From contig NZ_CP102512.1 of assembly GCF_024612015.1 (NCBI RefSeq), positions 3,100,001 to 3,164,000 of the forward strand: a DNA stretch of 64,000 bases, given 5' to 3'. The notes beneath the pieces were generated by a model. It had not been told where the DNA came from, did no database searches, and saw only the letters and a list, made by a program, of their open reading frames with translations. Below, one piece after another: positions 3,253 through 62,208 of the stretch (position 1 is the stretch's first letter; the number at the start of each line of letters is the position of its first letter). This stretch comes from Streptomyces sp. CA-210063. GTDB taxonomy: Bacteria > Actinomycetota > Actinomycetes > Streptomycetales > Streptomycetaceae. The translations under genes and the position numbers were made by a program.

Positions 3253-4914
3253 GTGACTCCCCTCTACGCGCGTCACAAGCGCACTACCCTGGCCATCGCG
3301 ACCGCCGTCGCCGCCGGCGCGCTGCTGACCACCGGGCTGACCTCCGGCGCCACCGCCCAGCCCGCGCCCGTCACGGACAAGGCCCAGCCGGCCGGTGCCC
3401 AGGTCCCGCTGACCCCCGCCACGCGCACCGCCCTGATCAAGAAGGCGGACGCCGCCACGACCGCGACCGCCGACGAGATAGGCCTGGGCGCCAAGGAGGA
3501 GCTGGTCGTCCGCGACGTCCTCAAGGACGCCGACGGCACGGTCCACACGCGCTACGAGCGCACCTACGGCGGCCTCCCGGTCCTCGGCGGCGACCTGGTC
3601 GTCCACGAGTCCAAGGCCGGTGACATCAAGAGCATCACCAAGGCCACGCAGGCCTCCGTCAAGGTCGCCGACCTCACCGCGGACGTCACCAAGGCGACCG
3701 CCGAGAAGCAGGCACTGAAGGCCGCCAAGGCCGAGGGCTCCACCAAGACCGAGGCCGACAAGGCCCCGCGCAAGGTCGTCTGGGCCGCGAACGGCAAGCC
3801 CGCCCTCGCCTACGAGACGGTCGTCGGCGGCTTCCAGCACGACGGCACCCCGCAGGAGCTCCACGTCATCACCGACGCGGAGACCGGCAAGAAGCTGTAC
3901 GAGTTCGAGGCCATCCAGACCGGTTCGGGCAACAGCCAGTACAACGGCCAGGTCACCATCGGCACGTCCCTGTCGGGCTCGACGTACCAGCTGAACGACC
4001 CCTCCCGCGGCGCCCACAAGACGTACAACAAGGCCCGCGCCACGTCCTCCTCCGCAGGCACGCTCTTCACCGACGCGGACGACATCTGGGGCACCGGGAC
4101 CGCCACCAGCTCCTCCACCGACCAGAACGCCGCCGTGGACGCCCACTACGGCGCCCAGGTCACCTGGGACTTCTACAAGAACGTCCTCGGCCGCAACGGC
4201 ATCAAGAACAACGGCGTCGCCGCGTACTCCCGCGTCCACTACGGCAACGCGTACGTCAACGCCTTCTGGTCCGACACCTGCTTCTGCATGACGTACGGCG
4301 ACGGCGAGGGCAACGTCAAGCCGCTGACGTCCCTGGACGTGGCGGGCCACGAGATGACCCACGGCCTGACGTCGAACACGGCCGGCCTGAACTACAGCGG
4401 CGAGTCCGGCGGCCTGAACGAGGCCACCTCGGACATCCTCGGCACGGCGGTCGAGTTCTACGCGGCCAACTCCAAGGACCCGGGCGACTACCTCATCGGC
4501 GAGAAGGTCGACATCCGCGGCAACGGCACCCCGCTGCGCTACATGGACCAGCCGAGCAAGGACGGCAACTCGGCCAACGCCTGGTCGTCGTCGCTGGGCA
4601 GCCTGGACGTCCACTACTCCTCGGGCCCGGCGAACCACTTCTTCTACCTGCTGAGCGAGGGCAGCGGCAGCAAGACGATCAACGGGGTGTCGTACAACTC
4701 CCCCACCTCGAACGGCGCCACGATCACGGGCATCGGCCGCGACAAGGCCGTCCAGATCTGGTACAAGGCGCTGACCACGTACATGACGTCCACGACCAAC
4801 TACAAGGGCGCCCGCACGGCGACCCTGAACGCGGCGTCCTCCCTCTACGGCTCCAGCAGCACGGAGTACGCGGCGGTGAACGCGGCGTGGGCGGCGGTCA
4901 ACGTGACGGCGTGA
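3253..4914 (+). CDS. secreted M4-family zinc metalloprotease
   Basis: This is a second thermolysin-like exoprotease of 553 residues, clearly paralogous to the gene upstream: long near-identical stretches run through the propeptide and catalytic core. The GTG start at 3253 sits 5 bases after AAGGAG (3242-3247). It has a signal peptide (TTLAIATAVAAGALLTTGL...), an FTP/PepSY propeptide with the conserved VHTRYERTYGGLPVLGGDL, and then the catalytic domain with HEMTH (H366, E367, H370) and E390 in GGLNEATSD. It stops directly after the catalytic domain, so the P-domain of its neighbour is absent. The arrangement suggests a tandem gene duplication followed by domain loss or gain. Confidence 0.93.
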   Translation: MTPLYARHKRTTLAIATAVAAGALLTTGLTSGATAQPAPVTDKAQPAGAQVPLTPATRTALIKKADAATTATADEIGLGAKEELVVRDVLKDADGTVHTRYERTYGGLPVLGGDLVVHESKAGDIKSITKATQASVKVADLTADVTKATAEKQALKAAKAEGSTKTEADKAPRKVVWAANGKPALAYETVVGGFQHDGTPQELHVITDAETGKKLYEFEAIQTGSGNSQYNGQVTIGTSLSGSTYQLNDPSRGAHKTYNKARATSSSAGTLFTDADDIWGTGTATSSSTDQNAAVDAHYGAQVTWDFYKNVLGRNGIKNNGVAAYSRVHYGNAYVNAFWSDTCFCMTYGDGEGNVKPLTSLDVAGHEMTHGLTSNTAGLNYSGESGGLNEATSDILGTAVEFYAANSKDPGDYLIGEKVDIRGNGTPLRYMDQPSKDGNSANAWSSSLGSLDVHYSSGPANHFFYLLSEGSGSKTINGVSYNSPTSNGATITGIGRDKAVQIWYKALTTYMTSTTNYKGARTATLNAASSLYGSSSTEYAAVNAAWAAVNVTA

Positions 4915-38209: not shown

Positions 38210-41200
38210 GTGACTCCCCGCCCGCCGTCCGACGACAGCACACAGCACACCGGCGCCGCCGCCGAGGGGTCCGCCCCGGTGAAGAAGACGGCCACGAAGA
38301 AAACGGCCGCGAAGAAAACCGTGGCGAAGAAGGCGACGACAGCGAAGAAGACGGCGACGAAAAAGGCGGCTGAGAAAACGGCGGAGAAGAGCACCGCGGC
38401 GAAGAGCACGGCGAAGGCGGTCGCCAAGAAGGCGGCCGAGGGGGCGCCGGTGGTCAAGAAGGCCGTCGCCAAGAAGGCGGCCGAGGGGGCGCCGGTGGTC
38501 AAGAAGGCCGTCGCCAAGAAGGCGGTCACCAAGAAGGCGGTCGCCAAGAAGGCCGGCGAAGGTACGGCGGCGGTCAAGAAGACCGCCGGGGCCGGCGGCA
38601 CGGCCGCGCCCAGAAAGGTGGCCGAGGACAAGGGCGTGGCCAAGAAGGCTCCGGCCAAGAAGACCGCCACGAAGAAGACCGTGGCGAAGAAGGCGGTCGC
38701 CAAGAAGGCGGTCACGAAGACGGCTGTCGCCAAGACGGCTGTCGCCAAGACGGCTGTGGCGAAGAAGTCGGCGGCCAAGAAGACCGTGGCAAAGAAAGCC
38801 GTCACCGCCAAGGCCGTCACCAAGAAAGCCGCCGCGAAGAAGACCGTGAGGCCCCCGCAGGAGACCGTGGCCGAGCCGGCCGCTCCCGTATCGGTGCTGA
38901 CTGAATCGGCGCACCCGGAACCGGTGCTGCCTCAGCAGGCCACCGCCGAGCGCGCGGTCACCGGCCGCTCGCCGGGCGAACCGGTCGGCACCCCCGACGC
39001 CGGACCCGGCCTCGCCCAGCCCGCCTTCTCCCCCGCCATGGACGGCGCCGATCGCGAGCGGCTGATCGCCGGTACCCACCACGCGCCGCACTCGGTGCTC
39101 GGGGCTCACCCCGCGCCCGGCGGTGTGGTGTTCCGGGCGTTCCGGCCGTACGCGCTCGCAGTGAGTGTGGTGGTGGAGTCGCTGCGGGCGGAGTTGCACG
39201 ACGACGGAGGCGGGTTCTTCTCGGCGCTGCTGCCGTTGCGGGAGGTGCCGGCGGCGTACCGGCTGCTGATCTCGTACGAGGGAACGGAACAGGAGACCGA
39301 GGACGCGTACGGTTTCCTGCCCGCGATCGGCGAGCTGGACCTGCATCTGATCAACGAGGGCCGGCACGAGGAGCTGTGGCGGGTGCTCGGCGCCGAGCCG
39401 ATGACCCACCAGGGCGTGACCGGCACCCGCTTCACGGTGTGGGCGCCGAACGCGCGCGGCGTACGGCTGGCCGGGACGTTCAACTTCTGGGACGGCACCG
39501 GATATCCGCTGCGTGCGCTCGGCTCCTCGGGCGTGTGGGAGCTGTTCGTGCCCGGGATCGGCGAGGGCGAACTGTACAAGTTCGAGATCACCCGGCCGGA
39601 CGGCACCAAGACGCTCCGCGCCGACCCGCTGGCCCGCCGCACGGAGGTCCCGCCCAATACGTCCTCCGTCGTGCACGCCTCGCACTACGAGTGGGGCGAC
39701 GAGGAGTGGCTGACCAGGCGGGCGGAGACCCCCGCGCACGAGGCGCCGTTCTCCGTCTACGAGATCCATCTGCCGTCCTGGCGACCCGGACTGACGTACC
39801 GTCAACTGGCCGAACAGCTACCGGTGTACGTCTCCGACCTCGGCTTCACCCATGTCGAGCTGCTGCCGGTCGCCGAGCACCCGTTCGGCGGCTCATGGGG
39901 CTACCAGGTGACCGGGTTCTACGCGCCGACGGCCAGGCTCGGCACCCCGGACGACTTCAAGTTCCTGGTCGACGCGCTGCACCAGGCCGGGATCGGTGTG
40001 CTGATGGACTGGGTGCCGGCTCACTTCCCGCGTGACGACTGGGCGTTGGCCGAGTTCGACGGGCGACCGCTGTACGAGCACGAGGACCCGGCGCGGGCGG
40101 CGCACCCCGACTGGGGGACGCTGGAGTTCGACTACGGGCGCCGCGAGGTGCGCAACTTCCTTGTCGCCAACGCCCTTTACTGGTGCGAGGAGTACCACAT
40201 CGACGGGCTGCGGGTGGATGCCGTCGCGTCGATGCTCTACCTCGACTACTCGCGCGAGCCGGGCCAGTGGACGCCGAACGAGCACGGCGGCCGGGAGAAC
40301 CTGGACGCGGTCGCCTTCCTCCAGGAGATGAACGCGACCGTGTACCGGCGGGTGCCGGGTGTCGTGACCATCGCCGAGGAGTCGACGGCCTGGGACGGCG
40401 TCACCCGCGCCACCCACCACGTCGGTCCGGGCGGCTTCGGCGGTCTCGGCTTCGGCCTGAAGTGGAACATGGGCTGGATGCACGACTCGCTGGGCTACAT
40501 GTCCAAGGAGCCGGTGCACCGCAAGCACCACCACCACGAGATGACGTTCTCGATGGTGTACGCGTACAGCGAGAACTACGTCCTGCCGATCTCCCACGAC
40601 GAGGTCGTCCACGGCAAGGGCTCCCTGGTGTCGAAGATGCCGGGCGACTGGTGGCAGCGGCGGGCCGACCACCGCGCGTATCTCGGCTTCATGTGGGCCC
40701 ACCCCGGCAAGCAACTCCTCTTCATGGGCCAGGAGTTCGCCCAGGGCGCAGAGTGGTCGGAGGCGCACGGGCCGGACTGGTGGCTGCTGGATCCGGCGTA
40801 CGGCGCCGAAGCCGACCACCGGGGGGTGCGCGATCTCGTCCGCGACCTCAACACGACCTATCGCCGCACCCCCGCCCTCTGGCAGCTCGACACCCACCCG
40901 TCCGGGTTCTCCTGGATCACGGGCGACGCCGCGGACGACAACGTCCTGGCGTTCCTCCGCTTCGACGCCGACGGGGCGCCTCTGCTGGCCGTCTCCCACT
41001 TCAGCCCGGTCGTCCGCGAGGACTACCGGCTGGGGGTTCCCGAGGACGTGCCGGCGTGGCGCGAGGTGCTCAACACGGATGCCGACGCTTACGGAGGGAG
41101 CGGCGTCACCAACCCCCACCCCGTGAAGACGGAACCCCACCCCTGGCACGGCCGCCCGGCCGGCATCCGCATCACCTTGCCCCCCCTGTCCACGATCTGG

Positions 41201-46253: not shown

Positions 46254-46311
46254 GCGATGACGGTATTCCTTGACGCCGACGTGAAGGAAAGAACGTGGGA
46301 ACAGACAAAAG

Positions 46312-46352
46312 CCGAGCGGCCAGGTCCATAGGGGGAGGACCTGGCCGCTCGG
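46312..46352. terminator. hairpin, first of a twin pair
   Basis: A perfect 16-bp stem (CCGAGCGGCCAGGTCC at 46312-46327 with 46337-46352) has a 9-nt loop ATAGGGGGA. It lies 90-130 bases past the end of dctA and 60 bases upstream of the MerR start. Confidence 0.85.
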
Positions 46353-46376
46353 TGTTCTGGTGCTCTTCAGTTGTGG

Positions 46377-46419
46377 GCCGTACGGCCGGGTCTACGGGGG
46401 GAGGACCCGGCCGTACGGC
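46377..46419. terminator. hairpin, second of a twin pair
   Basis: A perfect 16-bp stem (GCCGTACGGCCGGGTC at 46377-46392 with 46404-46419) has loop TACGGGGGGAG, closely resembling the loop of the neighbouring hairpin. It starts 22 bases after the dctA stop (in the direction of dctA transcription) and is its likely terminator. Confidence 0.88.
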
Positions 46420-46440
46420 GTTCTTGGGGGCCGGAACCCG

Positions 46441-47823
46441 CTACGCCTTGGCGAGTTCCTTCTCACCGTCCGACTCGGCGGCCGCGGCCTCCGGCGCAGG
46501 TCCATGCCCGTCGTCCAGCAGCGTCTTCTCGTCGAAGGGCAGCTGCCCGGCGAGGACCTGGTCGACGCGCTCCTTGTCGATCTCCTTGGTCCAGGTGCCG
46601 ATGAGGACCGTGGCGACCGCGTTGCCCGCGAAGTTGGTGAGGGCGCGGGCCTCGCTCATGAAGCGGTCGATGCCGACGATGAGGCCGATGCCGTCCACCA
46701 GGGCCGGCTTGTGGGACTGGAGGCCACCCGCGAGGGTCGCGAGGCCGGCGCCGGTGACACCGGCCGCGCCCTTGGAGGCGACCAGCAGGAAGAGCAGCAG
46801 CGGGATCTGCTCACCGATCGACATCGGCGTACCCATGGCGTCGGCGATGAAGAGGGACGCCATGGTCATGTAGATCATGGTGCCGTCGAGGTTGAAGGAG
46901 TAGCCGGTCGGGACGGTGATGCCGACGACGGGCTTGCTGACGCCCAGGTGCTCCATCTTCGCGATGAGGCGCGGCAGCGCCGACTCGGAGGAGGAGGTGG
47001 ACAGGATCAGCAGGAACTCACGGCCCAGGTACTTGAAGAACGTGAAGATGTTGAGGCCGGAGACGATCCGCAGCAGCGCCGCGAGCACGATGAAGACGAA
47101 GAGGAAGCAGGTGACGTAGAAGCCGAGCATCAGCACGGCGAGGCTCTTGAGGGCGTCGAGGCCCGCGGAACCGGTCACGGCCGCGATGGCACCGAAGGCG
47201 CCGATCGGGGCGGCCCACATCACCATCGCGAGGATGCGGAAGACGAGGCGCTGGATGTGCTCGACACCGCGCAGGATCGGCTGGCCGGCGTCACCCATGG
47301 CCTGGAGCGCGAAGCCTGCGAGCACGGCGACGAGCAGCGTCTGGAGGACCTCGCCGCCGGTGAAGGCGGAGACGAGTGTCGTCGGGATGATGCCGAGCAG
47401 GAACTCGGTGGTGTCCTTGGCCTCGGCCGACACCTGCGCCTGACCGGTCTCCTTGATCGCGTCGGTCACCGCGAGGCCGGTGCCCGGCTCCAGGATGTTG
47501 CCGACGACCAGGCCGATACCGAGGGCGACCAGCGACATCACCGTGAAGTAGGCGAGGGCGATACCGCCGACCGCGCCGACCTTCGCGGCCTTCCGTACGG
47601 AGCCGATGCCCAGCACGATCGTGCAGAAGATGATCGGCGAGATCATCATCTTGATCAGGTTCACGAAGCCGGTGCCGATGGGCTTCAGCTCAACGGCGAA
47701 GTCAGGGGCGATGAGGCCCACGGCGATGCCGATGGCCACAGCCACGATCACGGCGATGTACAGGTAGTGGGTGCGGTCCCGCTTGGCGGGTGCGGTAGGT
47801 GCCGTATGAGTGGTGCTGGCCAC
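46441..47823 (-). CDS. dctA: C4-dicarboxylate/cation symporter
   Basis: A 460-residue DAACS-family membrane transporter taking up succinate, fumarate or malate with cations. GTG 47821-47823 follows GAGGAGGG (5-base spacer). About eight hydrophobic helices are visible plus the hallmark re-entrant loops: the Ser-rich STSSSESALPRLI, the substrate loop PTGYSFNLDGT, and the second loop region SKGAAGVTGAGL with the helix-8 Asp/Asn motif DRFMSEARALTNFAGNAVAT. The C-terminus is an acidic tail. It is divergent from a CitA/DcuS-like two-component system, which fits dicarboxylate-induced control. Confidence 0.93.
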   Translation of the reverse strand: MASTTHTAPTAPAKRDRTHYLYIAVIVAVAIGIAVGLIAPDFAVELKPIGTGFVNLIKMMISPIIFCTIVLGIGSVRKAAKVGAVGGIALAYFTVMSLVALGIGLVVGNILEPGTGLAVTDAIKETGQAQVSAEAKDTTEFLLGIIPTTLVSAFTGGEVLQTLLVAVLAGFALQAMGDAGQPILRGVEHIQRLVFRILAMVMWAAPIGAFGAIAAVTGSAGLDALKSLAVLMLGFYVTCFLFVFIVLAALLRIVSGLNIFTFFKYLGREFLLILSTSSSESALPRLIAKMEHLGVSKPVVGITVPTGYSFNLDGTMIYMTMASLFIADAMGTPMSIGEQIPLLLFLLVASKGAAGVTGAGLATLAGGLQSHKPALVDGIGLIVGIDRFMSEARALTNFAGNAVATVLIGTWTKEIDKERVDQVLAGQLPFDEKTLLDDGHGPAPEAAAAESDGEKELAKA

Positions 47824-47893
47824 GGCTGCCCTCCTCGTCGACGTCGTCGTCGGCTCGCTCTTCCGGCGTGCGGCTCACGTCCGGGGGAAATTC

Positions 47894-48283
47894 GGGAGAC
47901 GGTCTCCCAGGGGTGGGAACCGGCGGGTTCCCGGGTGGGAGACCGGCTCCCACGTGGGAGACCGGCTCCCGGGGGTGGGAGCCGGCGGGCTCCCGGGGCT
48001 GGGAGTGGGGGCTCCCGGGCGGGAGCCTGGGGAGGCTCCCTGCGGTGGGAGCCGGAGCTCCCGGTGGGAGCGGGGCTCCCGGGGGGTGTGGGAGCCGGGG
48101 CTCCCGGCGGTGGAAGCCGACAGGCTTCCGGGCCGGAGGCTTGGGGGCTTCCGGCGGTGGGAGCTGGGGGGCTCCCGGTGAAGGGAGACAGGCTCCCGGT
48201 GGTGGGGAGAGGTGCCTCCCGAGGTGGGAGACGGGCTCCCGGCGGCTCGGGGTGTGGGGTCCCGGGGCGGGAGTCGTACTCCC
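47894..48283. repeat. array of about 17 short hairpin repeats
   Basis: A 390-bp array of imperfect palindromes fills most of the dctA-kinase intergenic region. The unit is GGGAGcCGG(n)GGCTCCCG, 15-20 bp, with a 2-9 bp linker often CGGTG or GGGTG; the period is about 22 bp. Clear units start at 47894, 47914, 47937, 47956, 47977, 48001, 48021, 48047, 48066, 48090, 48112, 48135, 48159, 48183, 48205, 48226 and 48269. Arms vary in a compensated way (GGGAAC with GTTCCC, GGAAGC with GCTTCC, GGGAGT with ACTCCC), so pairing is maintained. Only the linkers vary and there are no long spacers, so it is not a CRISPR array. Confidence 0.95.
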
Positions 48284-48395
48284 TCTCGTTGTCCATGTGC
48301 TGGACGAGTCGATGGGGTGACTATCCCCCGCCCTGTGAGGGCGGTCACCCTTCCGTTCATTTAGTTCACGCCGACACGTCGAGCAGACTGTTGGC

Positions 48396-50126
48396 ATGCG
48401 CGTCCCGCCCCGCCTCCGTCCCCGCAGCCTGGCCGGCCAGCTCTTCGCCGTACAGGCGGTGCTGATCGCGGCCGTCGTGGCCGGGTACGCGCTGTTCACG
48501 TACGTCAGCGACCGCAGCCAGGCGGAGGAGGCGGCGACCCGCCAGGCCCTGGCCGTCGCCGTCACGGTCGCCGACTCCCCCTCCGTGCGCGAGGCGATCC
48601 ACACCCCCAAGCCCACCAAGCGGCTCCAGCCGTACGCCACCGAGGTGCGGCAGCACGCCGGCGTCGACTTCGTGACGATCATGACCCGTGACGGCATCCG
48701 CTGGACGCACCCCGACCCCCGGCAGATCGGCCAGCCCTTCCTCGGCCACATAGAGAAGGCGCAGAACGGCGAGTCCTTCACCGAGACCTACACGGGCACC
48801 CTCGGCCCGTCCGTCCGCGCGGTCACCCCGGTCATGGAGAACGGCGAGGTCATCGGCCTGGTCAGCGCCGGGATCAGGGTCCAGGCGATCAGCGACCGCG
48901 TCCAGGACCAGCTGACCGCCCTCGTCGGCGTGGCCGCCGGCGCCCTCAGCCTCGGCGGCATCGGCACCTACATCGTCAACGCCCGGCTGCGCCGCCACAC
49001 CCACAACATGAACGCCGCCGAGCTCAGCAACATGCACGACTACCACCAGGCCGCCCTGCACGCCGTGCGGGAGGGCCTCGTCATGCTCGACGGCCAGTAC
49101 CGCGTGGCCCTCATCAACGACGGGGCGCGCGAGCTGCTGGGTGTGACGGAGAAGGTCGTGGGCCGCTCGGTCGCGGAGCTGGGCCTGCCGGCGCCCCTGA
49201 CGGGGGCGCTCCTGTCCTCGGAACCGAGGGTGGACGAGGTTCTCCTGACCGCCGAACGGGTGCTGGTCGTGAACACGTCCCCGGTGTCGGGCGGCCAGCG
49301 CCGCGGCACGGTGGTCACGCTTCGGGACGTGACCGAACTCCAGTCCCTCACGGGCGAGCTGAACTCCGAACGCGGCTTCACCCAGGCGCTCCGCTCGCAG
49401 GCCCACGAGGCCGCGAACCGCCTCCACACGGTCGTCTCGCTGATCGAGCTGGGCCGCTCGGACGAGGCGGTGGAGTTCGCGACGGCGGAACTGGAACTGG
49501 CGCAGGCCCTGACGGACCAGGTGGTGGCCGCGGTGAGCGAGCCGGTGTTGGCGGCCTTGTTGCTGGGCAAGACCGCCCAGGCGAACGAGCGGGGCGTGGA
49601 GCTGGTGGTGTCGGAGGACAGCCGCATCGACGACGGCCTCCTCCCGGAGTCCCTCCCCGCGCGGGACCTGGTCACCGTCCTGGGCAATCTGATCGACAAC
49701 GCGGTGGACGCGGCGCAGGGGTCGGTGGGGGCGCGGGTGACGGTCACGGCGTACACGGACGGGGCAGAGGAGTCGACGGACGATTCCGTCCTTGTGCTGC
49801 GCGTGACGGACACGGGTACCGGTGTGGACCCGGCTCACGCGGAGGCCGTCTTCGAACGCGGCTTCTCGACGAAACCGGCGGGCCCGGGAGGTCGAGGGCT
49901 GGGCCTGGCCCTCGTACGGCAGACCGCGCGCCGCCATGAGGGCACGCTGACGGTGTCGGAGGCGGCCGGGGGCGGAGCGGAGTTCGAAGTCCGCTTGCCG
50001 CTGCGTACGACCGATCCCGGGGCCGGTGCCGGGGCTGGGGCTGGGGCTGGGGCCGTTCCTGTTCCCGTTCCCACCAAGGCTGTCCAGGCCCCTCGGGCCA
50101 CTGTGGCTGGAGGCGACGACGTATGA
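48396..50126 (+). CDS. sensor histidine kinase, CitA/DcuS type
   Basis: A 576-residue membrane kinase sensing an extracellular carboxylate (by family). It has TM1 near residues 13-35, an extracytoplasmic PAS-like CitA domain (about 40-170, ADSPSVREAIHTPKPTKRLQPYATEVRQHAGVDFVTIMTRDGIRWTHPDP), TM2 at about 175-195, and a cytoplasmic PAS (VREGLVMLDGQYRVALINDGARELLG). The His region is QAHEAANRLHTVVSLIELG, and the ATPase has N-box LGNLIDNAVDAA, G1 DTGTGVD and G2 GRGLGLALVRQ. The tail has hexanucleotide repeats (GAGAGAGA, VPVPVP). It is coupled to the response regulator by ATGA. Confidence 0.92.
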   Translation: MRVPPRLRPRSLAGQLFAVQAVLIAAVVAGYALFTYVSDRSQAEEAATRQALAVAVTVADSPSVREAIHTPKPTKRLQPYATEVRQHAGVDFVTIMTRDGIRWTHPDPRQIGQPFLGHIEKAQNGESFTETYTGTLGPSVRAVTPVMENGEVIGLVSAGIRVQAISDRVQDQLTALVGVAAGALSLGGIGTYIVNARLRRHTHNMNAAELSNMHDYHQAALHAVREGLVMLDGQYRVALINDGARELLGVTEKVVGRSVAELGLPAPLTGALLSSEPRVDEVLLTAERVLVVNTSPVSGGQRRGTVVTLRDVTELQSLTGELNSERGFTQALRSQAHEAANRLHTVVSLIELGRSDEAVEFATAELELAQALTDQVVAAVSEPVLAALLLGKTAQANERGVELVVSEDSRIDDGLLPESLPARDLVTVLGNLIDNAVDAAQGSVGARVTVTAYTDGAEESTDDSVLVLRVTDTGTGVDPAHAEAVFERGFSTKPAGPGGRGLGLALVRQTARRHEGTLTVSEAAGGGAEFEVRLPLRTTDPGAGAGAGAGAGAVPVPVPTKAVQAPRATVAGGDDV

Positions 50127-50812
50127 CCAAGGCCGAGGCCGATCCCATCAGAGTCCTGGTGGTCGAGGACGATCCCGTCGCCGCCGACGCCCACATGATG
50201 TACGTCGGCCGTGTCCCCGGCTTCACGGCTGTGGGCAAGGCCCACACGGGCGCGGAGGCACGCCGCGCGCTGGACCGCACGCCGGTGGACCTGCTGCTGC
50301 TGGACCTGCACCTGCCGGACGTACACGGCTTGCAGCTGGCCCGCTCGCTGCGTGCGGCCGGTTACCACGCGGACGTGATAGCGGTGACATCGGCGCGGGA
50401 CCTGACGGTGGTGCGGGAGGGCGTGTCGCTGGGGGTGGTGCAGTACGTACTGAAGCCGTTCACGTTCGCGACGTTGCGGGACCGGCTGGTGAGGTACGCC
50501 GAGTTCCACGCGGCGGCGGGCGAGGCGAGCGGCCAGGACGAGGTGGACCGGGCGCTCGCGACCCTGCGGGCACCGGGGCCGGCCGCCCTGCCGAAAGGGC
50601 TGAGCGCGCCGACGCTGGAGCGGGTGACGGTGACCCTGCGGGATGCGGGTGAGGGCCTGACGGCGGCCGGGGTCGCGGAAGCGGTGGGCATCTCCCGGAT
50701 CACGGCTCGGCGGTACCTGGAGCACTTGGTGGACGCGGGGCGGGCGGCGCGGAGTCCGCAGTACGGGCAGGTGGGGCGGCCGGAGCTGCAGTATCGGTGG
50801 GTGAAGGGGTAG
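50123..50812 (+). CDS. response regulator, CitB/DcuR type
   Basis: A 229-residue regulator starting in an ATGA overlap with the kinase. The receiver domain has the acidic pair VVEDD, the phosphoacceptor Asp in LLLLDLHLPDVHGLQLAR, TSARD, and Lys in YVLKPFTFATLRDRL. The C-terminal part has a helix-turn-helix (TAAGVAEAVGISRITARRYLEHLVDAGRAARS) typical of CitB/DcuR regulators rather than LuxR or OmpR types. The likely target is the divergent dctA promoter, across the hairpin array. Confidence 0.92.
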   Translation: MTKAEADPIRVLVVEDDPVAADAHMMYVGRVPGFTAVGKAHTGAEARRALDRTPVDLLLLDLHLPDVHGLQLARSLRAAGYHADVIAVTSARDLTVVREGVSLGVVQYVLKPFTFATLRDRLVRYAEFHAAAGEASGQDEVDRALATLRAPGPAALPKGLSAPTLERVTVTLRDAGEGLTAAGVAEAVGISRITARRYLEHLVDAGRAARSPQYGQVGRPELQYRWVKG

Positions 50813-57441: not shown

Positions 57442-59536
57442 GCCCCATGGCCGGAGTCAGGGTCGGGAACACGGTCCGGTCCCGGTCGCGACGGCGATAC
57501 TCCCGCCCCGTCCCCCGGGCTTCACCGGCCGCTCAGCGGAGATGGACCGCCTCCTCTCCCGCCTGGCACCCGCCCCGGACGAGGACACTGCCCCGCTCCC
57601 CCTCCTCATCTCCGCCGTCACCGGCATGGGCGGCATCGGCAAGACCGCGCTCGCGGTGGAGGCGGCGCACCGGGCGTGTACGCGAGGCTGGTTCCCTGGC
57701 GGAACCCTTTTCGTCGACCTGCGCGGCTACGACGACAACCCGGTCACCGCCGACCAGGCGGTACTGGCCCTGCTCGATGCGCTGGGAGTACTCAACGGGG
57801 ACCTACCGGAGAGGACCGCACGGCAGTACGACGCCTACCGCACGCTCCTCGCCGAGCGGCAGGACCGGATGCTGCTGATCCTGGACAACGCCTCGGACCC
57901 GTCCCAGTACCTCCGCCTGCTGCCCGGCACGGACGACCACCGGGTCCTGATCACCTCCCGGGACCGCCCGAACGCGCTTCCCATACGCGTCATCGACCTC
58001 GACACCCTCCTCCCGGACGAGTCCGCCGCCCTGGTGACCCGCGCCCTGCACGACGCTGATGAAAGGGACAACCGCTGCTCCTGCGAACCAGACGCTTTGC
58101 GTGAACTCACCGCCCTCTGCGGCCACTTGCCCTTGGCCCTCCAGATCGCCGCCGCGATGCTCCGCCAACGTCGGCACCGGAGCATCGCCTCACTAGTGGC
58201 CGACATCAAGAAGGCCGAGGACCCGACCGCCGTATTCGACAACGGCAGTCCGGGCACGGACCTGTACGGCCGCTCACTCGTCCTCCGACCCGTGCTGGAG
58301 ACCTCATACCGCCGACTGTCACCCGACCAGGCCCGGTTGCTGCGTCTGCTGTCCCTCGCCCCCGGCGCGGAGACGACCACAGAGGCGGTGGCTGCCCTGG
58401 CCGACCTGTCCACGGAGGCTGCGCTGTCTCTGCTCGAAGACCTGGCAGCCGCCTATCTGGTCGCGCCGGTCCAGGATGGCGAGGGGTCGCCTTCCATACT
58501 GCGGTGGCGGCTGCATGACTTGGTGCGGGCGTTCGGGGTGGGTGTGGTAGCGGGGGAGATGGGGTTGCAGGAGGAGGGGGAGGCGGCGCGGGAGCGGGTG
58601 CTGGCGTTCTACTTCCGAAACGCGGCTGCGGCTGATGACCGGTTGCGGTGGTTGCCCGGTATGGAGCAGCCGGAGCGGTTTTCGAATCGTGGGGAAGCGT
58701 TGGAATGGTTTGACGGGGAACGGGCGGGGCTGGTGGCGGCGGTGTCATGGGGGCGAGAAGCGCTGTTCGCGGAGACAGCAGTGCTGCTGTCCGAGTGCCT
58801 GGGCGAGTATCTCGGTTGGCGGCGGTACTTCGACGACTGGATCACCGTCGCCCATGCCGCGCGGGAAGCCGCGCATCGTGCCGGGAACAACCGCAGCGAG
58901 GGCAACGCGTTCAACAACCTCGGCATCGCCCTGCGGGAGGCAGGCAGGGTGGAGGAGGCGATCGACGCCCACACCCGCGACCGCGAGCTGTGCCAGGCCG
59001 CCGGGGATACCGATGGGGAAGCCATGGCGTGGAACAGCCTCGGCATCGCCCTGCATGAGGTCGGTCGGGTGGAGGAGGCGATCGACGCCCACACCCGCGC
59101 CCGTGACCTGCATCAAACCACCGGGAACCGCCACGGCGAGGCCATGGCGTGGAACAACCTCGGCACTACCCTCCTGGTGGCGGACCGGGGGGAGGAGGCG
59201 ATGGACGCCGTCACCCGCGCCCGTGACCTGCACCGAACCACCGGGAACCGCTACGGCGAGGCCGGGGCGTGGAACAACCTCGGCACCGCCTTACGGAGAG
59301 CGGGCCGGAGGGAGGAGGCGATCGAAGCACACGGCAGAGCGCTGGAGATCTTCGAGGAGTTCGTAGACTCCTACGAGACAGGCCAGACCCTCCAGAACCT
59401 GGCCCTCGATCACTGGGACGCCCACTGCCTCGCCAAAGCCCGTGCCCACTGGCTGCAGGCCGCCGAGGCCTACGCCCGCGCCAACGCCCCCGCCGAAGCC
59501 GCCCAAGCCCGCGCAGCAGCCGAGGCCCTGGGATAG
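57407..59536 (+). CDS. NB-ARC/STAND ATPase with TPR repeats
   Basis: A 709-residue signal-transduction ATPase. ATG 57407 lies inside the upstream phosphorylase gene (35-bp overlap); an alternative is ATG 57542. The conserved opening LPPRPPGFTGRSAEMDRLL is present. Walker A is GMGGIGKT (73-80) and Walker B is MLLILDNAS. The sensor loop is TSRDRP, the GxP motif GHLPLALQIA, and the winged-helix Trp/His-Asp LRWRLHDLVRAFG (MHD-like). Residues of about 480-700 are five TPRs with a 40-residue period (AWNNLGTTLLVADRGEEAMDAVTRARDL). Together with the phosphorylase it resembles a split PNP-NB-ARC-TPR sensor. Confidence 0.9.
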   Translation: MDPSPASRTGDRPHGRSQGREHGPVPVATAILPPRPPGFTGRSAEMDRLLSRLAPAPDEDTAPLPLLISAVTGMGGIGKTALAVEAAHRACTRGWFPGGTLFVDLRGYDDNPVTADQAVLALLDALGVLNGDLPERTARQYDAYRTLLAERQDRMLLILDNASDPSQYLRLLPGTDDHRVLITSRDRPNALPIRVIDLDTLLPDESAALVTRALHDADERDNRCSCEPDALRELTALCGHLPLALQIAAAMLRQRRHRSIASLVADIKKAEDPTAVFDNGSPGTDLYGRSLVLRPVLETSYRRLSPDQARLLRLLSLAPGAETTTEAVAALADLSTEAALSLLEDLAAAYLVAPVQDGEGSPSILRWRLHDLVRAFGVGVVAGEMGLQEEGEAARERVLAFYFRNAAAADDRLRWLPGMEQPERFSNRGEALEWFDGERAGLVAAVSWGREALFAETAVLLSECLGEYLGWRRYFDDWITVAHAAREAAHRAGNNRSEGNAFNNLGIALREAGRVEEAIDAHTRDRELCQAAGDTDGEAMAWNSLGIALHEVGRVEEAIDAHTRARDLHQTTGNRHGEAMAWNNLGTTLLVADRGEEAMDAVTRARDLHRTTGNRYGEAGAWNNLGTALRRAGRREEAIEAHGRALEIFEEFVDSYETGQTLQNLALDHWDAHCLAKARAHWLQAAEAYARANAPAEAAQARAAAEALG

Positions 59537-61112: not shown

Positions 61113-61188
61113 CTCCCAGAGTCCCTAGAACTCCCAGAGTCCCTAGAACTAACTCCCAGAACCCCTAGAACTCCCAGAGCCCCTAGAA
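61113..61188. repeat. four tandem 18-bp units spanning the pfkA stop codon
   Basis: CTCCCAGAGTCCCTAGAA occurs at 61113-61130 and 61131-61148, and variants at 61153-61170 (with a 4-bp insert CTAA before it) and 61171-61188. In the direction of pfkA the units read TTCTAGGGxxTCTGGGAG, so each begins with the gene's last Phe codon and its TAG stop, all in the same frame. Confidence 0.95.
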
Positions 61189-62208
61189 CACCGACTCCGC
61201 CTCATCCATCCGATCCTTCGGCACCGTCTTCAGCTCGGTCACCGCCTCCGCCAGCGGCACCATCACCACCTCGGTGCCGCGCAGCGCGGTCATCCGGCCG
61301 AAGTCGGCCCGGTGCGCGGCCTCGACCGCGTGCCAGCCGAAGCGCGTGGCGAGCACCCTGTCGTACGCGGTCGGGGTGCCGCCCCTCTGGACGTGGCCGA
61401 GGATGACCGGCTTGGCCTCCTTGCCGAGGCGGCGCTCCAGCTCGTACGCCAGCGCCGTGCCGATGCCCTGGAAGCGCTCGTGGCCGAACTGGTCGATCTC
61501 GCCGTGGCCGTAGTCCATGGAACCCTCGGCGGGGTGGGCGCCCTCCGCGACACAGATCACCGCGAACTTCTTGCCGCGCGCGAAGCGCTCCTCGACCATC
61601 TTCACGATGCCGGCCGGGTCGAACGCGCGCTCGGGCAGGCAGATGCCGTGCGCGCCCGCCGCCATCCCGGACTCCAGCGCGATCCAGCCCGCGTGCCGGC
61701 CCATGACCTCGACGACCATCACCCGCTGGTGGGACTCGGCGGTCGTCTTCAGGCGGTCCATCGCCTCCGTGGCGACCCCGACCGCCGTGTCGAAGCCGAA
61801 CGTCCGGTCCGTCGACGAGATGTCGTTGTCGATGGTCTTCGGGACGCCGACGACGGGCAGGCCCGCGTCCGACAGCATCCGCGCCGCCGTCAGCGTGCCC
61901 TCGCCGCCGATCGGGATCAGTACGTCGATACCGAACTGGTGGGCCATGTCCTGCGCGTTCTCGCAGGCCTCGCGGAGGCGGTCGCGCTGGAGGCGGGAGG
62001 AGCCGAGGATGGTGCCGCCGCGGGCGAGGATGCCGCTGACGGACTCCAGGTCGAGGCTGCGGTAGCGGCCGTCGAGCAGACCGGCGTAGCCGTCCTCGAA
62101 GCCGATGACCTCGTCGCCGTACTGGGCGACCGCTCGGTGCACGACCGACCGGATCACTGCGTTCAGGCCCGGACAGTCGCCGCCTGCGGTGAGAACTCCG
62201 ATACGCAT
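61183..62208 (-). CDS. pfkA: ATP-dependent 6-phosphofructokinase
   Basis: A 341-residue PFK-A enzyme phosphorylating fructose-6-phosphate in glycolysis. The start is ATG 62206-62208 (MRIGVLTAGGDCPGLNAVIRSVV), with AGGAG upstream. ATP/substrate motifs include GGDCPGLN, PIGGEGTLTAARM and PKTIDNDISSTDRTFGFDTA. The substrate-site MGRHAGWIALESGMAAGA and HVQRGGTPTAYDRVLATRFG are intact. The length fits the ATP-dependent actinobacterial branch. It is divergent from pta (260 bp between starts), so upper glycolysis and acetate overflow sit side by side. Confidence 0.95.
   Translation of the reverse strand: MRIGVLTAGGDCPGLNAVIRSVVHRAVAQYGDEVIGFEDGYAGLLDGRYRSLDLESVSGILARGGTILGSSRLQRDRLREACENAQDMAHQFGIDVLIPIGGEGTLTAARMLSDAGLPVVGVPKTIDNDISSTDRTFGFDTAVGVATEAMDRLKTTAESHQRVMVVEVMGRHAGWIALESGMAAGAHGICLPERAFDPAGIVKMVEERFARGKKFAVICVAEGAHPAEGSMDYGHGEIDQFGHERFQGIGTALAYELERRLGKEAKPVILGHVQRGGTPTAYDRVLATRFGWHAVEAAHRADFGRMTALRGTEVVMVPLAEAVTELKTVPKDRMDEAESVF

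Follow-up and report, generated by a model that had tools for sequence, protein, structure and literature searches.

Between the dctA gene and the divergent two-component system of Streptomyces sp. CA-210063 lies a dense ladder of about 17 short hairpins, which raises the question of how such an array arose and what it does in this position. The initial annotation offered a multi-site operator, a structure acting in a long 5' leader, or an expanding repeat as possible answers. In the window, i.e. the whole stretch of 64,000 nucleotides that was analysed, the genes and the array are placed as follows:

46441..47823, minus strand: dctA, encoding a sodium:dicarboxylate symporter (Pfam SDF, E 2.1e-98; NCBIfam DctA, 489 bits, cut-off 513)
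47829..47836, minus strand: dctA ribosome-binding site (RBS) GAGGAGGG, as read from the sequence, with the start codon GTG at 47823
47894..48283, no strand assigned: array of about 17 GGGAG-type hairpins, which on the minus strand would form RNA hairpins within the predicted dctA leader
48396..50126, plus strand: DcuS/CitA-like sensor kinase (NCBIfam PRK11086, 343 bits, cut-off 520; sCache_3_2 and HATPase_c domains)
50123..50812, plus strand: DcuR/DpiA-like response regulator (NCBIfam DcuR, 126 bits, cut-off 262; Response_reg and DpiA-like HTH_64 domains)

As DctA and both two-component proteins score below the curated NCBIfam cut-offs, these names are used at family level.

The tandem, head-to-tail GGGAG-loop-CTCCC hairpins occupy the 572-bp gap between the dctA start at 47823 and the kinase start at 48396. 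Counting with the purine-rich arm first, 17 hairpins are located between the flanking conserved boxes, with start-to-start distances of 19–26 bp, a single gap of 43 bp, and a median period of 22 bp. If either arm may come first, 16 non-overlapping hairpins are parsed across 47894–48283. Among these, 13 of the 15 gaps are shorter than 15 bases, and the remaining two measure 15 and 28. The loops are G-rich on the plus strand (182 G and 52 C in 63 distinct units). The arm variants named in the initial annotation (GGGAAC/GTTCCC, GGAAGC/GCTTCC, and GGGAGT/ACTCCC) were each located in the array, namely as GGGAACC/GGTTCCC at 47915, GGAAGCC/GGCTTCC at 48112, and GGGAGT/ACTCCC at 48269.

The hairpin score of the array is 70, compared with a mean of 24.9 (sd 6.3, maximum 38) for 100 dinucleotide shuffles. 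The array also provides the top non-overlapping 402-bp tile of the window (69, the next being 49), and its 400-bp tile, again scoring 69, exceeds the maximum of 49 among 3,920 overlapping tiles from 800 kb (40 x 20 kb) of the same 10.86-Mb genome. Standing above all shuffles and tiles, the array of about 17 hairpins with a period of about 22 bp is confirmed where it was first described.

Further repeats occur in the window. The gap between dctA and its convergent neighbour contains two long near-perfect GC-rich palindromes in tandem (46311–46353 and 46376–46420), whose arms differ from one palindrome to the other and are complementary within each. They are probably a pair of two-way terminators, and the tile around them scores second-highest within the window. 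Degenerate 15/45-bp tandem repeats of the GAAGGCGGTCGCCAA type at 38281–38842 probably encode a lysine/alanine-rich protein tail, while 120-bp tandem repeats at 58881–59332 are presumably tetratricopeptide-type coding repeats. A tandem 18/40-bp repeat, CTCCCAGAGCCCCTAGAA, is found at 61113–61189.

Distribution and stepwise growth among Streptomyces

A tree was built from 87 rows, all of which contain dctA and the kinase gene; the duplicates L009 and L006 had been removed beforehand. The array is present in 17 rows and absent in 70. Long arrays are confined to one 15-row clade (SH-aLRT 99), in which the orthologous arrays comprise 3–4 hairpins in L094 and L010, 7–8 in L008, L037, and L038, and 9–17 in ten rows including the window. 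The sister group (L079, L046, and L044) has 1–2 hairpins in spacers of 57–67 nt. Far off on the tree, L082 and L091 carry a separate array of GGGAGGyGTACTCCC units, with 3–4 hairpins by a strict count. The array of L213 is of the same type as that of L082, and L178 and L082 evidently represent one contig. The comparison of copy number across relatives, which the initial annotation had proposed, thus yields a nested series as well as a second origin. Among 80 named loci, 70 are array-free, and all of these contain dctA and the kinase gene. The regulator gene is present in 69 of the 70, the other locus ending just past the kinase, and in 78 of all 80, both misses being short loci that end soon after the kinase.

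The gaps that separate close relatives frequently measure 19–25 bp, as between the window and L003 (20), L004 and L032 (25), L035 and L034 (22), and L082 and L213 (23). Other gaps are 43 bp (L009/L010), 64 bp (window/L036), and 7–13 bp (L007/L033). In the window (39 of 2000 shuffles), L004 (3), and L036 (13), neighbouring units resemble each other more closely than when their order is shuffled. This similarity is borderline in L003 (131 of 2000) and absent in L007 (1559), L008 (293), and L082 (347). Degenerate units are found within the arrays of L007, L033, L009, and L010. Non-hairpin tandem copies or a repeated box A (the conserved box on the dctA side of the array) occur at the same spot in L066 (CTGTACTGC-type), L194, L126, L122, L059, and L236. 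Judging from these sequences, the dctA spacer looks like a duplication hotspot; the array is read as a tandem duplication there on account of its nested growth, often unit-sized gaps, and alike neighbours in some arrays. The expanding repeat proposed at the outset is therefore upheld by stepwise growth in one clade and by the likeness of adjacent units in three of the arrays.

BLAST of the array against its own genome returned no second copy among the 40 of 92 candidates that were scored. A hairpin-pair pattern gave 33 matches in this genome, 20 in the array and 13 elsewhere, and a reversed-pattern control gave 30. Three overlapping matches at G000:C1:5549750–5549804 may form a second, very small GGGAG-type cluster. 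Similar DNA was not found in plasmid and phage collections. In 392 genomes, 121 had a match to the array at E <= 0.001, and 30 matches were fetched as loci. Of these, one is the window itself (L001), all eight of L003–L010 are dctA/kinase loci, and all 21 of L011–L031 contain neither gene; 10 of the latter were inspected and are low-complexity repeats or isolated matches.

When forward and reverse matches of the pattern were counted together in 392 Streptomyces genomes, the genome studied here had 25 matches, followed by the array genomes G253 (21) and G108 (20). G095 reached 18 even though its dctA leader (L126) has no array, and its 10 listed places are scattered. The array genomes G295 and G349 have 16 each, as does G293, and the remaining array genomes, whose arrays are shorter, are unremarkable (G247 12, G352 12, G139 11, and G366 6). 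The pattern covers this stem sequence only, and hairpins of any sequence were scanned for in 800 kb of the genome studied here; hairpin arrays of a wider class, with other stems and at other loci, are possible. Identical arrays at random unrelated intergenic sites, which the initial annotation had named as counter-evidence, were looked for by BLAST, pattern, and 800-kb tile searches of the own genome and by the 392-genome pattern search, and were not seen. Together with the plasmid and phage searches, these point to one locus and give no support to a dispersed repeat family.

Predicted promoter, leader and regulator sites

The linkers between dctA and the predicted promoter were compared in 209 loci (184 distinct linkers), comprising the window, eight loci from the array-match search, the 80 named loci retrieved via the kinase protein, and 120 loci found through a conserved block and drawn from the 188 of 392 genomes that match it. 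The elements recognised are:

47867..47879, no strand assigned: box A, CGTGCGGCTCACG, an inverted repeat in the interval between the array and the dctA RBS, exact in 175/184 distinct relatives
48320..48325, minus strand: predicted dctA -10 hexamer GATAGT (ACTAT-N17..19-GGTCAC in 181/184)
48335..48348, no strand assigned: Crp-like site GTG-N6-GNCAC overlapping the predicted -35 hexamer, in 184/184, partly by construction
48343..48348, minus strand: predicted dctA -35 hexamer GTGACC, 17 bp from the -10 hexamer
48355..48368, minus strand: direct repeat TGAAC-N4-TGAAC just upstream of the predicted -35 hexamer (GTTCATTNAGTTC in 165/184)

The core of box A is present in at least two copies in 9 of the 184 distinct linkers. 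On the kinase side, box B contains the Crp-like site, the TGAAC repeat and, in the direction of dctA, GTGACC-N17-GATAGT; 162 of the 184 have this spacing and 19 have one extra base. Box B is proposed as the dctA promoter, with a transcript start near 48313, in which case the array would make up most of a leader of about 490 nt. A scan with a generic sigma-70 consensus found no promoter. The Crp-like site follows the consensus quoted in PMC10033298, and its count of 184/184 reflects loci that were anchored on the best block match (at most 4 mismatches), 120 of the 209 having been fetched with a pattern that contains the site; the 80 named loci were retrieved by the kinase protein instead. The TGAAC direct repeat would be the best candidate site for the DcuR/DpiA-like regulator.

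Where present, the array is always located between box A and the promoter-like block, and the internal spacing of the block is kept. The spacer between boxes A and B measures 10–29 nt in 91 of 172 measurable linkers and at least 150 nt in 17, with many intermediate sizes. In S. cyaneus (L105:668-4001), about 3.3 kb split the promoter-like block, which lies with box A and dctA at 3–668, from the kinase at 4001. The initial annotation had placed the array exactly where the response regulator should act. This placement did not hold: both the predicted promoter and the regulator-like repeats are found beyond the array, nearer the kinase, and the regulator gene is retained in 69 of the 70 named loci that have no array.

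Relative to shuffles, the minus strand is predicted to fold more strongly than the plus strand in three leaders (z -10.0 and -6.4; -9.8 and -7.4; -5.0 and -3.7, respectively), which is attributed to the G-richness of loops and linkers on the opposite strand. In the predicted minimum-energy folds, local hairpins occur alongside pairing between units. The predicted openness of the RBS, scored in 188 of the 209 leaders, is 0.16 in 17 leaders with spacers of at least 150 nt and 0.24 in 105 with spacers below 60 nt (p 0.01, ignoring kinship). In S. clavuligerus, structured transcript ends without a U-rich tract (353) outnumber those with one (182) according to PMC8269248, and hairpin clusters without U-tracts at bacterial transcript ends have been proposed as terminators (PMC8355165). 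Taken together, folding, RBS openness, and the reported U-tract-free hairpin ends suggest that the ladder acts as a mild brake on dctA. In addition, the dctA-sense RNA might suit Rho, as its unpaired bases are C-rich. If this RNA were the form that counts, G-U wobbles would be expected to be tolerated on its strand. Wobbles show no strand preference, with 12 G-T and 10 A-C among 47 mismatches in 92 distinct units, and thus do not point to the dctA-sense RNA as the molecule that is preserved. The idea of a structure in a long, predicted 5' leader is supported, with pairing kept.

Maintenance of pairing and competing explanations

Covariation between units was tested with units chosen blind to pairing (107 distinct of 234, from 19 sequences, kinship uncorrected). 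None of 5,000 shuffles reaches the pairing seen at arm positions 3 and 5; the signal at position 6 is weaker, being reached by 125 of 5,000. Positions 1, 2, 4, and 7 are not distinct (1390, 585, 2163, and 3621 of 5,000, respectively). Among orthologous units of eight close relatives, pairing is intact in 95.2% of 601 cells, and most stems are invariant. Double-sided changes were found in 6 of 83 pairs, compared with a shuffle mean of 1.6 and 0–2 in slid structures. Four of the six belong to a single hairpin and two to a helix in which the alignment of L036 looks faulty. As many orthologous pair types arise in 187 of 500 shuffles, so that their number does not stand out, and RNAalifold, applied to the eight-relative alignment, prefers a structure that is in part long-range and whose covariation term, +4.55, is unfavourable. 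Orthologous covariation thus rests on essentially one hairpin. The co-varying arms described in the initial annotation are accordingly seen between different units, and hardly among orthologous stems.

The rate of change provides a second measure. In seven close non-overlapping pairs, 19 of 769 stem positions and 71 of 1210 non-stem positions changed (Mantel-Haenszel OR 0.42, z -3.4), and in the same pairs 213 of 1991 fourfold sites of dctA changed. These figures use a union stem annotation and supersede both a set of 15 overlapping pairs annotated in one sequence and an eight-sequence version, which gave a larger difference. Two of the seven pairs show only a slight stem advantage or the opposite trend (L037/L038, 3/100 and 8/127; L009/L010, 2/33 and 11/126). 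Drift of the arms without compensation, which had been named as a refuting observation, is partly true, with 47 mismatched arm positions in 92 distinct units, some of which are possibly spurious. By these measures together, pairing is maintained to a moderate degree. Weak selection is the preferred cause, since arm-to-arm copying alone would not make stems change more slowly; this is an argument and not a proof.

The reading preferred here, at a probability of roughly 0.45, is that the array is a lineage-specific hairpin minisatellite in the dctA 5' leader and acts as a mild restraint on dctA. It would have started from a single GGGAG-loop-CTCCC hairpin in the short spacer between the predicted dctA promoter and box A, duplicated head to tail, mostly by one unit of about 22 bp per event, up to about 17 copies. 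Transcribed into the dctA mRNA from the minus strand, the units could form a ladder of short GC hairpins. In cis, this would most likely cause pausing or partial premature termination within the ladder and make the RBS somewhat less accessible, and dctA output would fall as the ladder lengthens. If the ladder does affect expression, the nested series of one to about 17 units would be a natural dose series for the effect of repeated hairpins on transcription and translation in high-GC bacteria. The array also lets selective upkeep of hairpins be weighed against upkeep by replication errors, which is usually hard because functional RNAs are strongly constrained throughout.

A nearly neutral minisatellite, to which slippage at hairpins of the replicating strand adds copies and in which template switching, with one arm copied from the other, keeps the palindromes without benefit to the cell, is a serious rival and quite possible. 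The spacer evolves fast in many species and contains other tandem copies (the CTGTACTGC type of L066; box A repeats in L194, L126, and L122, among others), and template switching can create and maintain hairpins according to PMC8794818. The wobbles without strand bias, the degenerate units of some species, and the two sequence pairs with little or no stem advantage also fit it. Unbiased arm copying, however, predicts stems that change at the neutral rate with both arms changing together, while the stems are slower overall and single-sided breaks exceed kept double changes (106 and 42 cells, from all ordered, non-independent pairs of eight related sequences). Furthermore, inversion of loops would scramble their G-richness on the plus strand, which persists, although copying of arms only, without loop inversion, is possible.

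The preferred minisatellite with a mild brake also has a stronger form, in which each added hairpin shifts dctA output slightly and selection built such a counting rheostat at least twice at the same spot. This form is doubtful. If true, a minisatellite would provide heritable, gradual tuning of a nutrient transporter through RNA structure.

It is improbable that the array is a two-way terminator or insulator separating the divergent dctA and kinase promoters. Palindromic units would act on both strands, and U-tract-free hairpin clusters or stem-loops mark many transcript ends in the reports cited above (PMC8355165, PMC8269248), but the array is located downstream of the predicted dctA promoter rather than between the promoters and would mainly stop dctA; moreover, array-free species keep the same genes. 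A multi-site operator, as first suggested, bound by the response regulator or another dimeric regulator, is less probable still and was rejected. In its favour, the units are dyads that recur at a nearly constant period and lie in the control region of a regulated gene. However, the array is lineage-restricted (17 of 87 rows; 70 of 80 named loci lack it, 69 of these with the regulator gene), while the regulator-like repeat (165/184) and the promoter-like hexamers (181/184) are better kept outside it. In addition, sequence-reading proteins have no need of paired arm changes between units, and spacer sizes from 10–19 nt to at least 150 nt do not suggest that phasing is constant. The reading of the array as coding for a leader peptide or small repetitive protein is largely refuted and was rejected: an ATG near 48296 does open a minus-strand frame through the array of the window, but its context is found in 5 of 15 related arrays, 2 of the 5 frames stop before the dctA start, and most periods of the 19–26 bp units are not multiples of three.

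Comparison with known systems

Among the open-access papers listed for Streptomyces dctA, palindromic tandem repeats between genes, hairpin arrays, C4-dicarboxylate regulation, and repeats in leaders, none was recognised as describing this array. Rfam gave no match at gathering score; the only hit, mir-3151 (40.5 bits, gathering score 83, E 4.1e-5), was dismissed as chance since it lies below that score. Like VNTR and MIRU loci, the array consists of intergenic repeats arranged head to tail, and its copy number varies from relative to relative. The MIRU of senX3-regX3 is a parallel of repeats beside a two-component system, as found here. In contrast, the units of the array are short self-complementary hairpins whose arms differ from unit to unit, they occupy a single locus and are not dispersed, and their copy-number variation is known here between species.

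With REP, BIME, and REPIN elements the array shares short, clustered, GC-rich palindromic units. REPs usually exceed 100 copies per genome (PMC2817692), whereas the array was found at one locus in the searches made. Hairpin-cluster terminators are similar in having closely spaced hairpins without U-tracts, and 13 of the 15 gaps of the array fall below their spacing of 15 bases. As described in PMC8355165, such clusters lie downstream of stop codons and most commonly consist of two hairpins, while the array lies upstream of a start codon and comprises about 17. Finally, hairpins created or maintained by template switching, which PMC8794818 treats for rRNA-type RNAs, share the compensated arm changes, but the present case is a tandem array in which the stems change less than the rest.
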